From Sphingomonas sp. (GTDB taxonomy: Bacteria > Pseudomonadota > Alphaproteobacteria > Sphingomonadales > Sphingomonadaceae), in contig NZ_JAHBZJ010000002.1 in the NCBI RefSeq assembly GCF_019635455.1, positions 62,001 to 126,000 on the forward strand: a DNA stretch of 64,000 nucleotides, written 5' to 3'. A program made the translations under genes and the position numbers. The notes under the pieces are model-generated. The model worked only from the letters and a program-made list of their open reading frames with translations. It had not been told where the DNA came from and searched no databases. The first letter of the stretch is position 1, and every line of letters starts with the position of its first letter. Below, piece after piece: positions 2 through 17,080 of this stretch.

Positions 2-547
2 CCCGTGCGCGCCGAGGGCATGGTCTATTTCGAGGGCGGGCCATCCTTCTCCTATCACAACGATCCCGCCAAGACCGCGGAGGCCGCCAACAAGCATGGC
101 TGGACCACGCTCGGCGACATCGGCTGGGTCGATGAGGAGGGGTTCCTGTACCTCACCGACCGCAAGAGCTTCATGATCATCTCGGGCGGGGTGAACATCT
201 ATCCGCAGGAAATCGAGAATATCCTCGTCACCCACCCACGGATTGCCGATGCGGCCGTGGTCGGCGCGCCCGATCCGGATTTCGGCGAAAAGGTCGTGGC
301 GGTGATCCAGCCGGTCGAATGGGCCGATGCTGGCGACGCCTTCGCCGAGGATATCCGGCAATGGCTGCGCCCGCAGATATCCGGCATCAAAATGCCACGT
401 CAGATCGACTTCATGGCGGAACTGCCGCGCCAGCCGACAGGCAAGCTCTACAAGCGACTGATTCGGGATGCCTATTGGGCGAAGGCCGGCGAGGTCCCTG
501 TCGGCTCGGTCAAACGCCCGGTGTCGAACGAGGAGGCATCGCGATGA
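2..547 (+). CDS. Acyl-CoA ligase (AMP-binding family), C-terminal part only
   Basis: This is the 3' end of an ATP-dependent acyl-CoA synthetase of the ANL superfamily, which activates a carboxylic acid as acyl-AMP and transfers it to CoA. The upstream part lies outside the window. Visible signatures are the adenylate-binding GDIGWVDEEGFLYLTDR segment, the hinge motif SGGVNIYPQEIE that begins the mobile C-terminal domain, and the catalytic-lysine motif PTGKLYK near the end. Its TGA overlaps the ATG of the esterase gene (ATGA), so the two are translationally coupled. In context it probably activates a carboxylic acid intermediate of the catabolic block. Family is secure; substrate is unknown. 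Confidence 0.9.
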   Translation, partial: PVRAEGMVYFEGGPSFSYHNDPAKTAEAANKHGWTTLGDIGWVDEEGFLYLTDRKSFMIISGGVNIYPQEIENILVTHPRIADAAVVGAPDPDFGEKVVAVIQPVEWADAGDAFAEDIRQWLRPQISGIKMPRQIDFMAELPRQPTGKLYKRLIRDAYWAKAGEVPVGSVKRPVSNEEASR

Positions 548-1524
548 CCGATATCGCCTGGCTTGAGAGCCGCCCGGGTATCGGCGCCCGCTTCACCAAC
601 GCCTTGCTGCGCGCCACGCGTGCAAAAACCCCGCTGGACGTCGATAACCACCAGGCACTCATCGATGCGCGCCAGAAGCTCGACAAGCTCGACACGCTCA
701 TGGCCAAGCTGCGCCGCAAATCGTCACTGCCCTTTACCGCCCGCGAATCCGTTCTCGCTGGCATACCGGTCATGGAACTGACCGTCAGGGCGCCGCTTGC
801 GCCCGCAACCGACGGGATTCTGCTCTTCATCCATGGCGGCGGCTTCTTCTTCCGCTCGCTCCACAGCCATATGTTGCTGGCCGCGCGTATTGCCGAACAG
901 GCCGGTATCCGCCGCGTCATCCTGCCACTTTATTCGCTTGCGCCCGAAAGTCTTTTCCCGGTGGCGCGCGACGAATGCCGCCACGCCTATGGAGCGCTGC
1001 TCGCCAGCGGCATCGACCCCGATCGCCTCGCAATCGCCGCAGATTCGGCTGGTGCCGCGCTCGCGCTCGGTATGTTGGTCAAGGTGCGTGACGAGGGCCT
1101 TGCGATGCCGCGCGCGGTCGCGCTGCTGTCCCCGATGCTCGACCTTGGATATTCGGGCGATGCGATTGTCGCCAACGCGGCGCACGATCCGATGTTCGGG
1201 GGACAGCCCATGCCACCGCCGACTTATTATCTTGGGAATACCGATCCCCGCAGCCCGGAATGCTCGCCCCTGTTCGCCGATCTGTCCGGGCTTCCGGCCC
1301 TTTATGTGCAGGTCGGCAGCACCGAGCGATTGCTCGACGACAGCCTCCGCCTCGCCGATTCCAGGCATTCCGGAAACTTGCCCGTCGCGATAGAGGTCTG
1401 GAAGGAGATGCCGCACGTCTTCCAGGCTTATGATTTCCGCGAGGCCGCCCAGGCCCGTCGTCATATCGCCGCATTCTTTCGGAACATGGGGTTCGCGCGG
1501 CCCATGGCGACGGGAAGGGTTTGA
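544..1524 (+). CDS. Alpha/beta hydrolase, hormone-sensitive-lipase-type esterase
   Basis: A 326-residue alpha/beta-hydrolase of the HSL (GDXG) esterase family. It carries the oxyanion-hole motif HGGGFFF, a nucleophile motif ADSAGA, a probable catalytic Asp in the segment LLDDSLRLAD and a His in MPHVFQAY. The nucleophile elbow is slightly unusual because the family normally has GDSAG; here the first Gly is Ala. The ATG at 544 overlaps the ligase stop; an upstream in-frame extension runs through ligase sequence and is rejected. No signal peptide is evident, so it should be cytoplasmic. In this operon it could open a lactone or ester made by the nearby Baeyer-Villiger-type enzyme, but that is inference. 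Confidence 0.88.
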   Translation: MTDIAWLESRPGIGARFTNALLRATRAKTPLDVDNHQALIDARQKLDKLDTLMAKLRRKSSLPFTARESVLAGIPVMELTVRAPLAPATDGILLFIHGGGFFFRSLHSHMLLAARIAEQAGIRRVILPLYSLAPESLFPVARDECRHAYGALLASGIDPDRLAIAADSAGAALALGMLVKVRDEGLAMPRAVALLSPMLDLGYSGDAIVANAAHDPMFGGQPMPPPTYYLGNTDPRSPECSPLFADLSGLPALYVQVGSTERLLDDSLRLADSRHSGNLPVAIEVWKEMPHVFQAYDFREAAQARRHIAAFFRNMGFARPMATGRV

Positions 1525-2669
1525 TGGATCGGGAATGGCCGGCGGCGCGAAGCCGACGCTCTTCGATTGTCGCGCAGTTCGGAGGTGAGCGGGCAGACCT
1601 CCTGCACCGGGCGTTGACGACCGGCGACCCGCTCGCCGACGCCGTGGCAGGCGCGATGCAGGCAGACCCAGCCATCCGTCAACAGATCGATCTCGGCCTG
1701 GTTCATGGCCTCGCCGCCGTACCGCAACCACACGACGCGGTGCGCGCACTCCTCACGGACACCGAGCGACGGCCCGACTACGTCGATGATGCGCTGCTCG
1801 AGCGCGGCTCGCGCCCCTTTCACAGCATGCCGCCCGCCGTCCATATCGTTTCACTGAGCGTCGGCGCTCTCATCCGTGTCTATCAATCGCCCTCGATCAC
1901 TGTTGTCCTTGCCGGCACCGGCCGCCTCATCGACGGCGCTGAGCGCCGCATCCGCGAGACCGGGAAATGGCTCGGGACGGCGATGCTGCCCGGCGCGTTG
2001 GCGCCGGGTCAGGCGGGCTATGTCGCGACGATACGGGTACGCTTGCTCCATGCCCTCGTTCGCATGGGTGCGCGCCGGAAGGGATTCGACGAGACGAAGT
2101 TCGGTGTACCGCTCAACCAGGTCGATCTCGGACGCACATGGATGGACTTCACGCTTACCGCCTGGAGCGCGGAGGAAGAGATGGGCTTCGGCCTGACCAG
2201 CAGCGAGCTCGATCGGCTCTATCGTCTCTGGTGGTATGTCGGCCACCTGATGGGCGTCGATGCCCGCCTGATCGAGGGAATCTCGGCCCATGACCAGGCG
2301 AAGCGCGTTGATGACCTCTTCCAGGCAGTCACGGGACCACCCATCGCTCAATCTCCGCAGCTTGCCGCCGCCACGCTCGACAGCATCAAGAAAGAACTCA
2401 ACGCCGCACTGAACGTCCCCGCGAAGCTCGGACTCCGTGCGCTCTGGAGTCTCGTGCGGCGATTTCATGGCGACCGTGTCGCCGACGAACTGGGAATCCC
2501 GGCGTCCCCGGTCAGCGATCCCGTAATCAGCGGCGCGATCGAGATCTGCCGCGCCCGCCGCTCGGCCGCGCGTCGTGACCCGGTCCGATGGGAGGCCGAA
2601 ACCGACAGCAATATCGATGCCCTCAAAGGCGAACTCGCGGCTTTCGACAACGCAGAATATGAACGCTGA
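1524..2669 (+). CDS. MpaB / rubber-oxygenase-like protein (DUF2236)
   Basis: A 381-residue member of the DUF2236 family, which includes the b-type-heme rubber oxygenase Lcp and the fungal oxygenase MpaB. The family core is visible: an Arg-rich helix with His176 in RVRLLHALVR (the likely heme ligand), then GVPLNQVDLGRTWMDF and a C-terminal helix with WWYVGHLMGVD. Start choice: ATG 1524 overlaps the esterase stop by one base (TGATG); a TTG three bases earlier is less likely. It is the last gene of the ligase-esterase operon. Known relatives cleave or oxidise isoprenoid or other unsaturated chains, but many bacterial DUF2236 proteins are uncharacterised, so the reaction is not assigned. Confidence 0.85.
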   Translation: MDREWPAARSRRSSIVAQFGGERADLLHRALTTGDPLADAVAGAMQADPAIRQQIDLGLVHGLAAVPQPHDAVRALLTDTERRPDYVDDALLERGSRPFHSMPPAVHIVSLSVGALIRVYQSPSITVVLAGTGRLIDGAERRIRETGKWLGTAMLPGALAPGQAGYVATIRVRLLHALVRMGARRKGFDETKFGVPLNQVDLGRTWMDFTLTAWSAEEEMGFGLTSSELDRLYRLWWYVGHLMGVDARLIEGISAHDQAKRVDDLFQAVTGPPIAQSPQLAAATLDSIKKELNAALNVPAKLGLRALWSLVRRFHGDRVADELGIPASPVSDPVISGAIEICRARRSAARRDPVRWEAETDSNIDALKGELAAFDNAEYER

Positions 2670-16716: not shown

Positions 16717-16762
16717 ACCCGTCTTCCCCTGCCATAGATGACCTTCCTCGCTTCTCCAGCCA

Positions 16763-17080
16763 TCAGCCGGCGAGCTCGCTATTGAACTGCATCGCCGGCA
16801 GGACAGGCGAGAAATTGGCGATGTCTTGCTGTAGCGAACCGGCCTCGGGATGCGCCAGCGCGGAGGTGAGGTCCGCGTCCGAAGCGAAGTGCAGAAGAGT
16901 AATCAGAGCAAAGTCCGGGTTGGCCTGCGATCCCGGGGCGGCGACGCCCTTCAGCACCTGTACCTGTGTGAGAAGCGGTCCCCAGATCCGTTGCACCAAC
17001 CGGAGATGTTCGGAAGTATAATAATCGAAATCGAACGTGCCGTCCTCCGGCATGCGGTAGTGAAGTGACAAGATGGCCAT
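16763..17080 (-). CDS. EthD-like dimeric alpha-beta barrel protein
   Basis: A 105-residue protein resembling the EthD family: short ferredoxin-like ORF with FDFDYYTSEHLRLV, similar to the conserved FxxYYxxxHxPL region, and a C-terminal FxSELAG segment. EthD was first found beside a P450 (ethyl tert-butyl ether degradation) and these small proteins are often encoded in oxidative catabolic operons, with unclear biochemical role. The ATG at 17080 has AGGAGG (17095-17100) 14 bases away, slightly long spacing. It is the first gene of the minus-strand operon with the racemase and thiolase. Confidence 0.8.
   Translation of the reverse strand: MAILSLHYRMPEDGTFDFDYYTSEHLRLVQRIWGPLLTQVQVLKGVAAPGSQANPDFALITLLHFASDADLTSALAHPEAGSLQQDIANFSPVLPAMQFNSELAG

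Follow-up and report, generated by a model that had tools for sequence, protein, structure and literature searches.

We found a conserved cluster of 20 genes, which we predict to form a single regulon and which is probably used for the catabolism of alicyclic or terpenoid compounds. The hydroxyl group arising from a Baeyer-Villiger step would be removed as a 4-phosphoacyl-CoA. We infer the substrate, the order of the steps and the regulation.

In the proposed route, an alicyclic or terpenoid compound would enter through the TonB-dependent receptor. The P450 likely hydroxylates it, and the short-chain dehydrogenase (SDR) would oxidise the alcohol to a ketone. The Baeyer-Villiger monooxygenase (BVMO) would then insert oxygen, the HSL-family esterase would hydrolyse the lactone and a ligase would load the hydroxy acid on CoA. 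Opening of a six-ring lactone to a secondary 6-hydroxy acid would close the dicarboxylate route, unlike the primary alcohol derived from cyclohexanone. One round of beta-oxidation could convert the 6-hydroxyacyl-CoA to a 4-hydroxyacyl-CoA, the type of compound on which LvaA/LvaC and ACAD10/11 are known to act. A kinase and an ACAD11-type acyl-CoA dehydrogenase (ACAD) would remove the hydroxyl via 4-phosphoacyl-CoA, returning the compound to beta-oxidation as 2-enoyl-CoA. The racemase may epimerise a 2-methyl centre of the remaining chain, and shortening of this chain would fall to the ACAD, hydratase, FadB and thiolases that the cluster itself encodes.

Extent and gene content of the cluster

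The original prediction described a catabolic block within the window (the whole stretch of DNA analysed, 64 kb). The gene classes it named are all intact open reading frames of the expected families (Table 1), but the edge of the window cuts the block, whose true extent is larger. The whole cluster occupies 26 kb (C12:52990-79080) and starts 9.0 kb before the window. Upstream of the window are the full gene of the ligase whose C-terminal part opens it (L006:8964-10547; 527 amino acids; orthologues 77-79% identical in the clusters of Sphingomonas liriopis and Sphingomonas G548) and, before this gene, a second ligase and an enoyl-CoA hydratase. A FadB-type protein, a thiolase, an SDR and an ACAD are encoded divergently.

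The esterase gene, which likely starts at the ATG at position 544, has an ATGA overlap with the ligase gene, and its orthologue in both Sphingomonas clusters is 60-62% identical. The ATG of the MpaB/Lcp oxygenase gene, a gene absent from the original prediction, overlaps the esterase stop codon by one base. An orthologue of the receptor (61-64%) occupies the same place in three relatives. Scans for sigma-70 promoters (5, versus a mean of 3.7 with s.d. 1.7 in shuffled sequences) and for terminators (9 versus 10.5) gave about as many hits as the shuffles.

Table 1. Features of the cluster that lie in the window, with window coordinates
Feature	Position	Strand	Evidence
Acyl-CoA ligase, C-terminal part, FadD4-like	2..547	+	Pfam AMP-binding; NCBIfam FadD4-like, below cut-off
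HSL-family (alpha/beta-hydrolase) esterase, predicted lactone/ester hydrolase	544..1524	+	PF07859, 130 bits
MpaB/Lcp-family oxygenase	1524..2669 (ORF also given from 1521)	+	PF09995, 71 bits
TonB-dependent outer-membrane receptor	3009..5519	-	PF00593/PF07715
Operator-like site AACTACACGTATA	5545..5557	+	Between receptor and kinase; one of two exact genome sites
APH-fold kinase, ACAD11 kinase-domain/LvaA-like, predicted 4-hydroxyacyl-CoA kinase	5717..6712	+	PDB 3dxp, 334 bits; ACAD11 8v3v, 232 bits
ACAD11/LvaC-like acyl-CoA dehydrogenase, predicted 4-phosphoacyl-CoA lyase	6731..7993	+	8v3u, 375 bits (best ordinary ACAD, 128 bits)
SDR alcohol dehydrogenase, predicted alcohol to ketone	8127..9050	+	PF00106, 159 bits; TGGASGIG and YSASK
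Cytochrome P450	9064 (likely ATG)..10296	+	PF00067, 90 bits; FGGGRHTCLG
Class B flavin monooxygenase, PtlE/PockeMO BVMO branch	10390..12186	+	NCBIfam NF045818, 699 bits (cut-off 1100); PDB 5mq6, 436 bits
TetR regulator 1	12138..12956	+	PF00440; in all four related loci, 38-74%
TetR regulator 2	13070..13744	+	PF14514; 78-79% in S. liriopis and G548
Thiolase, PRK06025 type	14308..15561	-	NF004682, 762 bits (above cut-off of 568); 84-85% in both Sphingomonas relatives
Alpha-methylacyl-CoA racemase, CaiB fold, by sequence	15607..16716	-	MCR 1x74, 394 bits
EthD-family protein, last cluster gene	16763..17080	-	TIGR02118, 47.9 bits; 54-56% in two Sphingomonas relatives
Operator-like site AATTACACATATA	17140..17152	+	Upstream of EthD-racemase-thiolase operon; second exact genome site

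Kinase, acyl-CoA dehydrogenase and oxygenases

Removal of the hydroxyl by a kinase and an ACAD11-like enzyme had been proposed, and the sequences of the two proteins agree with this. Each matches one half of ACAD11, and those ACAD11-specific residues that could be placed are conserved. R256, H264, R267 (of the HCMR motif) and D383 of the dehydrogenase correspond to R626, H634, R637 and D753, as defined for mouse ACAD11 (PMC12440821); the chain numbering was counted by hand and is one below that of the paper. Residues 256-267 of the dehydrogenase read RLGPGRIHHCMR, and Asp383 is part of VDGPDEVH, where Asp takes the place of the catalytic Glu. The kinase has HGDFRIGN at 194-201 (the HGDxxxxN motif with catalytic Asp and Asn) and RQVGRWTKQ at 153. 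It keeps the equivalents of D220, N225 and R176 of the ACAD11 kinase, and R86 found no place on the alignment. Judged by sequence, the pair resembles ACAD11 and LvaA-LvaC even in its active-site residues, where the likeness to LvaA and LvaC is drawn from the comparison with ACAD11.

In the levulinate pathway of Pseudomonas putida (lvaABCDE) and in mammalian ACAD10 and ACAD11, a kinase and a special ACAD likewise act together so that a 4-hydroxyl leaves as phosphate. Our ACAD shares with these systems the HCMR motif, the upstream Arg and the catalytic Asp, CoA ligases are present in our cluster and, as in lva, the kinase and the ACAD are separate genes. Unlike lva, our pair is in one run with an SDR, a P450 and a flavin monooxygenase, and a keto acid is not indicated as the entry compound.

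The expectation that the CaiB-like protein is a racemase is also supported by its sequence. MCR (1x74) scores 394 bits, compared to at most 117 bits for CoA-transferases, and the protein keeps MCR positions His126, Asp156 and Glu241, which we take to be the catalytic residues. The scores and residues rule out a class III CoA-transferase, and by these measures the protein is an alpha-methylacyl-CoA racemase.

The sequence does not fix whether the substrate has a ring. In a subterminal oxidation, a BVMO acting on an open-chain or methyl ketone would produce an ester, which the esterase would split into a short acid and an alcohol, while the kinase/ACAD pair would handle a 4-hydroxy acid arising elsewhere in the chain. 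In keeping with such a route, the esterase is nearest to other esterases among solved structures (EstD11 is the best match), and each of the two ligases could act on an acid of its own. However, the BVMO branch, represented by PtlE and 5mq6 (presumably the polycyclic ketone monooxygenase), is known for cyclic ketones, and the SDR, P450 and BVMO genes occur together even in a metagenome-assembled genome (MAG) of Caulobacterales. We therefore regard an open-chain substrate as unlikely.

The I-helix of the P450 reads AGNQTT in all four aligned sequences. A gene for a 2Fe-2S ferredoxin, a partner that a P450 would need, is located 3′ of the esterase gene in S. liriopis and G548. It is not in our cluster, and the nearest one in the genome is 59% identical (C12:167845).

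A flavin monooxygenase of the BVMO branch is present as predicted, but Baeyer-Villiger activity is not assured in our own enzyme because the fingerprint histidine is missing. The motifs GAGFGG, GTGATG and GGTWYWNRYPGLACD are there (motifs as defined in the available part of PMC4498894). The second fingerprint, FxGxxxHxxxW[P/D], is replaced by FKGHSFLASRWD, in which His214 has become Leu (FxGxxxLxxxW). The fingerprint is intact in the BVMOs of Novosphingobium olei, S. liriopis and G548, the Caulobacterales MAG has Tyr for Phe, and the histidine is kept in 113 of the 118 scorable BVMO homologues. Our protein and its five nearest homologues, all of the Leu type and otherwise full-length, form a supported clade of six.

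It is conceivable that the enzyme without histidine is no longer a BVMO, and that the MpaB/Lcp oxygenase performs a C-C cleaving oxygenation in a re-wired variant of the cluster. This scenario overlaps the main reading, which describes the relatives' version. It would fit the Leu clade, as well as the MpaB gene, which overlaps the esterase gene here and is missing from the clusters of relatives; two of these instead have the ferredoxin, a secretin and two CrtC-type lipocalins at this position. Among the matches listed, the nearest other MpaB homologues are 81% and 70% (Beijerinckia) identical, then at most 62%. However, our BVMO is otherwise 73-75% identical to its His-bearing orthologues. Moreover, MpaB could not be tied to the Leu clade: no genome of P0001-P0005 was recognised among the best 120 of 250 MpaB homologues. 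Such re-wiring is, in our estimate, quite unlikely.

Conservation and operator-like sites

Two relatives, S. liriopis and G548, have 19 of the 20 genes in the same order (54-90% identity). N. olei has a core of seven genes, namely the receptor, kinase, ACAD, SDR, P450, BVMO and TetR genes (61-86%), and the Caulobacterales MAG keeps SDR-P450-BVMO-TetR. Synteny in three other genomes rules out a chance neighbourhood. The original prediction had also considered that homologous clusters might consistently lack the BVMO, kinase or racemase, which is not so: BVMO and kinase are in all three, and the racemase is in place in two. In the stretches read on either side of the N. olei core, about 19 kb ahead of it and 26 kb beyond it, we found no HSL esterase, ligase or racemase gene. 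That genome has no HSL match at E 1e-15, and its sole racemase-like match at E 1e-60 (59%) lies on a different contig and contains two internal stops.

We examined the surroundings of 39 BVMO paralogues (40-53% identical) in other genomes of the family: none has the full gene set or the kinase, and one has an ACAD11-like gene (L095). Since ACAD11-like enzymes are widespread in the family, occurring in 110 of 149 genomes, the kinase/ACAD pair alone is not special. All plasmid-borne BVMOs (47 records) are less than 60% identical. The two paralogous BVMOs of our own genome (L043 and L044 on C19) are in different clusters, as is an NRPS-like region with a P450 (L047, C12:14-30 kb).

These distributions bear on whether two modules are merely adjacent, one scavenging 4-hydroxy acids in the manner of lva and the other, P450-SDR-BVMO, acting on another compound. 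Such independence is consistent with the MAG, whose trio lacks kinase and ACAD in the 21.8 kb examined, and with the scarcity of ACAD11-like genes near BVMO paralogues (none in 38 of 39) despite their abundance in the family. By contrast, the kinase, ACAD, SDR, P450 and BVMO genes are co-directional and in identical order in all four Sphingomonadaceae loci, ours included, so that we consider mere adjacency improbable.

A shared operator-like 13-mer, which we picked by eye from our own cluster and then counted, has two exact copies in the 3.15-Mb genome, both in the cluster. With up to one mismatch it occurs at five places in the 3.15 Mb, three of which are at three cluster promoters; the reversed control pattern occurs at three places in this genome. 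At the receptor/kinase promoter the 13-mer is identical in three species (ours, S. liriopis and G548), and the site at the fadB/ech promoter agrees at 10 of 12 bases in two relatives. At the place of the EthD-promoter site, there is no match in S. liriopis (up to three mismatches) or G548 (up to two), and none was found in the N. olei receptor/kinase region. Because three promoters share the 13-mer, the plus- and minus-strand operons are predicted to be co-regulated, and the cluster is a predicted single regulon.

Relation to known pathways

Side-chain beta-oxidation draws on a racemase, a thiolase, a ligase and a P450, and the PDB matches of our P450 include CYP125- and CYP142-type chains (155-172 bits); nevertheless, catabolism of a steroid or other polycyclic side chain by P450, ligase, ACAD and racemase, as in cholesterol, with the BVMO cutting a ring or an acetyl group, is very improbable, given that PikC is the best match (187 bits) and that no steroid ring-degradation family is among the cluster proteins, to which this search was limited.

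The SDR and the BVMO branch recall pentalenolactone biosynthesis, to which we presume PtlI, PtlF and PtlE contribute. The BVMO has its best family match in NF045818 (PtlE), and the matches listed for the SDR include PtlF (NF045814). However, the scores are below the family cut-offs, and our genes are linked with CoA catabolism instead of terpene biosynthesis.

The proposed alicyclic or terpenoid route resembles two catabolic pathways described in the available part of PMC4097962. In the camphor pathway of P. putida (P450cam, the camD dehydrogenase, Baeyer-Villiger enzymes and a CoA synthetase), the reaction types have the same order, i.e., P450, alcohol dehydrogenase, Baeyer-Villiger enzyme and CoA ligase. 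The original prediction knew of no pathway with the present combination; this part of it is thus already known from camphor, but the kinase/ACAD11 step does not occur in that part of the camphor description. Also unlike our one-protein enzyme, the diketocamphane enzymes are two-component (available part of PMC6352141). As to the camphor-type set, our cluster has the P450, SDR and ligase, and its BVMO lacks one fingerprint that the relatives' BVMOs carry.

The second is the limonene/carveol/menthone pathway of Rhodococcus erythropolis DCL14, in which an alcohol dehydrogenase, a BVMO yielding a seven-ring lactone and a lactone hydrolase lead to a secondary 6-hydroxy acid, followed by CoA activation and beta-oxidation. 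In that part of PMC4097962, the fate of BVMO-derived secondary hydroxy acids in bacteria is left vague, and for DCL14 it is given only as "oxidation and activation", whereas our cluster would supply one. A literature search, with subscription papers mostly outside it, found no paper that brings together a Baeyer-Villiger monooxygenase, acyl-CoA dehydrogenase, phosphotransferase and lactone in the context of a catabolic gene cluster. In the same search, Baeyer-Villiger chemistry beside lvaA, ACAD11 or 4-hydroxyacyl-CoA appeared only in work on mouse FMO5, as far as the available part of that work goes.

More tentatively, the kinase/ACAD11 pair might be a dedicated answer to the Baeyer-Villiger secondary hydroxyl, wired directly beside the P450, SDR and BVMO for mineralising terpenoid or alkyl-substituted rings. 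One lineage of Sphingomonas might since have lost the fingerprint histidine and recruited an MpaB/Lcp-type oxygenase, with a change in the oxygenation chemistry. The clade lacking the histidine is a natural test of how far this residue is needed. The occurrence of BVMO chemistry and the ACAD11 mechanism in one conserved cluster offers a testable answer to the fate of secondary hydroxy acids. If true, it would carry the 4-phosphoacyl-CoA route beyond levulinate and 4-hydroxy fatty acids to compounds with rings.

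Extent, conservation and rarity of the cluster

All gene classes claimed for the block 2..17080 by the original prediction were found intact, but its left boundary did not hold, for the window edge cuts the cluster. The 527-aa ligase is whole once the upstream 10 kb (L006) is read, and 5′ of it on the plus strand are an enoyl-CoA hydratase (PaaG-like, with a score below the cut-off) and a second ligase, divergent from genes for a FadB-type protein, a thiolase, an SDR and an acyl-CoA dehydrogenase. With these upstream genes, the cluster extends over 26 kb and 20 genes of the 3.15-Mb assembly whose positions C12:62001-126000 make up the window (Table), and includes a full beta-oxidation set. 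Junctions in the ligase-HSL-MpaB run are tight: the likely ATG of the HSL gene (544) overlaps the stop of the ligase gene, and the HSL stop codon in turn shares a base with the likely start codon of MpaB.

With the BVMO as query, the named genomes scanned yielded three orthologous loci plus a single weak match. In Sphingomonas liriopis every gene but MpaB is present and the order is kept (19 of 20), and the same 19 genes occur in G548, a third genome of the genus (protein identities to both clusters 54-90%). Novosphingobium olei retains, in order, receptor, kinase, ACAD, SDR, P450, BVMO and TetR1 (61-86% identical), and the HSL gene had no match in its genome. Parts of an acd386-like acyl-CoA dehydrogenase also survive in N. 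olei (residues 1-145 and 329-377), probably left over from the cluster's beta-oxidation half. In the Caulobacterales MAG, BVMO, TetR, P450 and SDR are differently arranged and 38-61% identical.

The cluster is rare among the genomes sampled. Counting its own genome, BVMO matches at E ≤1e-215 occur in 3 of the 295 genomes searched in the genus and 2 of the 385 in the class, the other class match being only 53% identical; at E ≤1e-205 they occur in 3 of 397 family genomes (other two 52% identical). We also used the cluster proteins as queries against 39 BVMO neighbourhoods, comprising all 37 places at E ≤2.6e-151 outside the own genome and two others. The kinase was in none of the 39 neighbourhoods searched, 9 of the 37 being shortened by a contig end or by the length of stretch taken. 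P450 matches there were at most 32% identical, and an ACAD11-like gene was present in one (L095, 48% identical). At this locus the gene lies about 2 kb from the BVMO, with CaiB-type and ligase genes, possibly an independent union of BVMO and ACAD11 chemistries. ACAD11-like proteins are common in the family (110 of 149 genomes at E ≤1e-80), and none apart from the cluster ACAD itself is more than 54% identical to it; a second one in the own genome, on contig C15, is 50% identical.

Two further regions of the own genome were noted. One, on contig C19, holds two more BVMOs (about 50% identical), an HSL-type hydrolase, ligases, a biotin-dependent carboxylase, an APH-type kinase and acyl-CoA dehydrogenases. 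The other resembles a small NRPS cluster; its 1353-aa protein has ligase-like (adenylation) matches, and a P450 and a further ligase-like protein lie next to it.

Table. Locations of the cluster and associated features (G000, own genome; L numbers, neighbourhood stretches)
Feature	Location	Strand	Remark
Whole cluster	C12:52990 to C12:79080
MpaB/Lcp-family oxygenase	window, likely 1524-2669	+	missing from the original prediction
Flavin monooxygenase	window 10390-12186	+
Single secretin adjoining two CrtC-type lipocalins, by the TonB receptor	L058:686-4634; L059:1262-5402; G548 C13 (L104)		three relatives
acd386-like fragments	L037:15507-16075		N. olei
BVMO with ACAD11-like gene	L095 (G070:C130)
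Second catabolic region	G000:C19:118000-144000 (L043, L044)
NRPS-like region	G000:C12:20000-28000 (L047)
Ferredoxin beside racemase-like gene	G000:C7:7405-8768
WAYTACACRTATA, receptor/kinase promoter	window 5545
WAYTACACRTATA, EthD-racemase-thiolase promoter	window 17140
WAYTACACRTATA, fadB/ech-ligase promoter	C12:58373
WAYTACACRTATA with two mismatches allowed, outside cluster	window 35066
Region with AGTGGTTTGTGCATCCC	window 5520-5716

The flavin monooxygenase and the MpaB gene

The predicted Baeyer-Villiger enzyme was borne out in part. It groups with PtlE and 5mq6 and has the Rossmann motifs and the first BVMO fingerprint, but the second (FKGHSFLASRWD) has leucine instead of histidine at residue 214. 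Among the best 120 of 297 homologues (E ≤1e-210), the residue was scored in 118, with 113 histidines and 5 leucines; the five are the nearest to the window protein (79-92% identical). In a 42-sequence tree, FastTree supports the six Leu proteins as one clade (1.0), indicating a change kept in the lineage and ruling out an assembly error. Only three changes are diagnostic of this clade (uniform within it and different in at least 90% of the other 36 sequences), namely R13N, H214L and Q157H, the last of which provides a new histidine. The orthologues in relatives carry the BVMO marks, except that tyrosine replaces the first phenylalanine in the MAG. Mutating this histidine in HAPMO nearly abolished activity, reportedly in work by Fraaije in 2002. 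Passages of PMC4498894 and PMC7570161 treat it as a defining mark; because it is missing, the window protein, judged on its residues, is not classed as a proven BVMO.

The MpaB gene occupies the place of other genes in the relatives. In S. liriopis and G548 the esterase is followed by a 2Fe-2S ferredoxin, and the stretch up to the receptor also has a secretin and two CrtC-type lipocalins, with a second receptor-like gene in G548. The S. liriopis lipocalins have signal-peptide-like N-terminal stretches, judged by eye. The secretin and the CrtC pair also occur in N. olei; the window cluster lacks this set, and its genome gave no match to CrtC. Together these proteins may export a hydrophobic substrate or capture it. 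The nearest such ferredoxin in the own genome (C12:167845) is 59% identical, and on contig C7 a ferredoxin (58%) adjoins a CaiB-family racemase-like gene (47%). Among the best 120 of 250 MpaB matches, the nearest other relatives are 81% and 70% (Beijerinckia) identical and the rest at most 62%, and those named are mostly actinobacterial, which suggests that the window lineage acquired MpaB. A re-wired variant of the pathway could be imagined, in which the flavin enzyme without its histidine would no longer be a BVMO and the MpaB/Lcp oxygenase would cleave instead. This variant fits the best explanation, alicyclic or terpenoid catabolism, as applied to the relatives, so the odds of the two overlap.

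Operator-like promoter elements

Three divergent or operon-leading intergenic regions were read, and a recurring element was seen there. With at most one mismatch, WAYTACACRTATA occurs at five places in the own genome, three of them cluster promoters (Table) and the others on C14 and C19; both exact copies are inside the cluster. The reversed control pattern occurs at three places in this genome. With at most two mismatches, the window has three matches, one outside the cluster, a number reached by 0 of 100 shuffles. Since WAYTACACRTATA was defined on these very sites, its conservation is the independent evidence. The window and S. liriopis share the 18-mer CTCTTAACTACACGTATA without a difference, and G548 departs from it only at the first base, in an otherwise diverged intergenic region. 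The S. liriopis genome has no further exact copy of the element. The fadB/ech promoters of S. liriopis and G548 have a 10-of-12 match; the element was not found at the EthD promoter of these two relatives, nor in the receptor/kinase region of N. olei. Just past the site, the three Sphingomonas share a second conserved element, AGTGGTTTGTGCATCCC, which N. olei has in part.

The kinase/ACAD pair and the putative substrate

PDB matches of the kinase and ACAD correspond to the two domains of ACAD11, and the pair resembles the lva/ACAD11 module. The ACAD scores 375 bits with 8v3u (ACAD11) versus 128 with the best ordinary ACAD, and the kinase 334 with 3dxp and 232 with 8v3v (ACAD11). According to parts of PMC12440821, R626, H634, R637 and D753 distinguish ACAD10/11 and LvaC or are catalytic, and substitutions disrupt activity; the cluster ACAD has all four (R256, H264, R267, D383). 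Equivalents of ACAD11 kinase D220, N225 and R176 were found in the cluster kinase, and none was placed for R86. In the portions of PMC11342911 concerned, 4-hydroxyacyl-CoA is converted via the 4-phospho form to 2-enoyl-CoA, the mammalian domains are replaceable by bacterial homologues, and neither 5- nor 6-hydroxyhexanoate gave a phosphorylated product in cells. Given this last result, we infer that, for a six-ring lactone, the pair would act after one round of beta-oxidation, and that a 6-hydroxy acid as such would not be a substrate.

The esterase is an EstD11-like member of the HSL family. The heme motif is present in the P450, whose PDB matches point to no particular substrate. Its I helix reads AGNQTT in the four sequences aligned; an acid is usual where these have glutamine. 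The predicted racemase was upheld on sequence, with 394 bits to M. tuberculosis MCR versus at most 117 to transferases, and the three catalytic positions of MCR are kept.

According to sections of PMC4097962, the camphor pathway runs from P450 through dehydrogenase and Baeyer-Villiger enzyme to CoA ligase, and in the limonene/carveol pathway a dehydrogenase and a BVMO are followed by lactone hydrolase and CoA activation. The literature searched did not unite those pathways, the lva/ACAD11 pair and the racemase in one conserved cluster. Based on the BVMO branch, the substrate of this Sphingomonas cluster would be cyclic and, based on the racemase, 2-methyl-branched.
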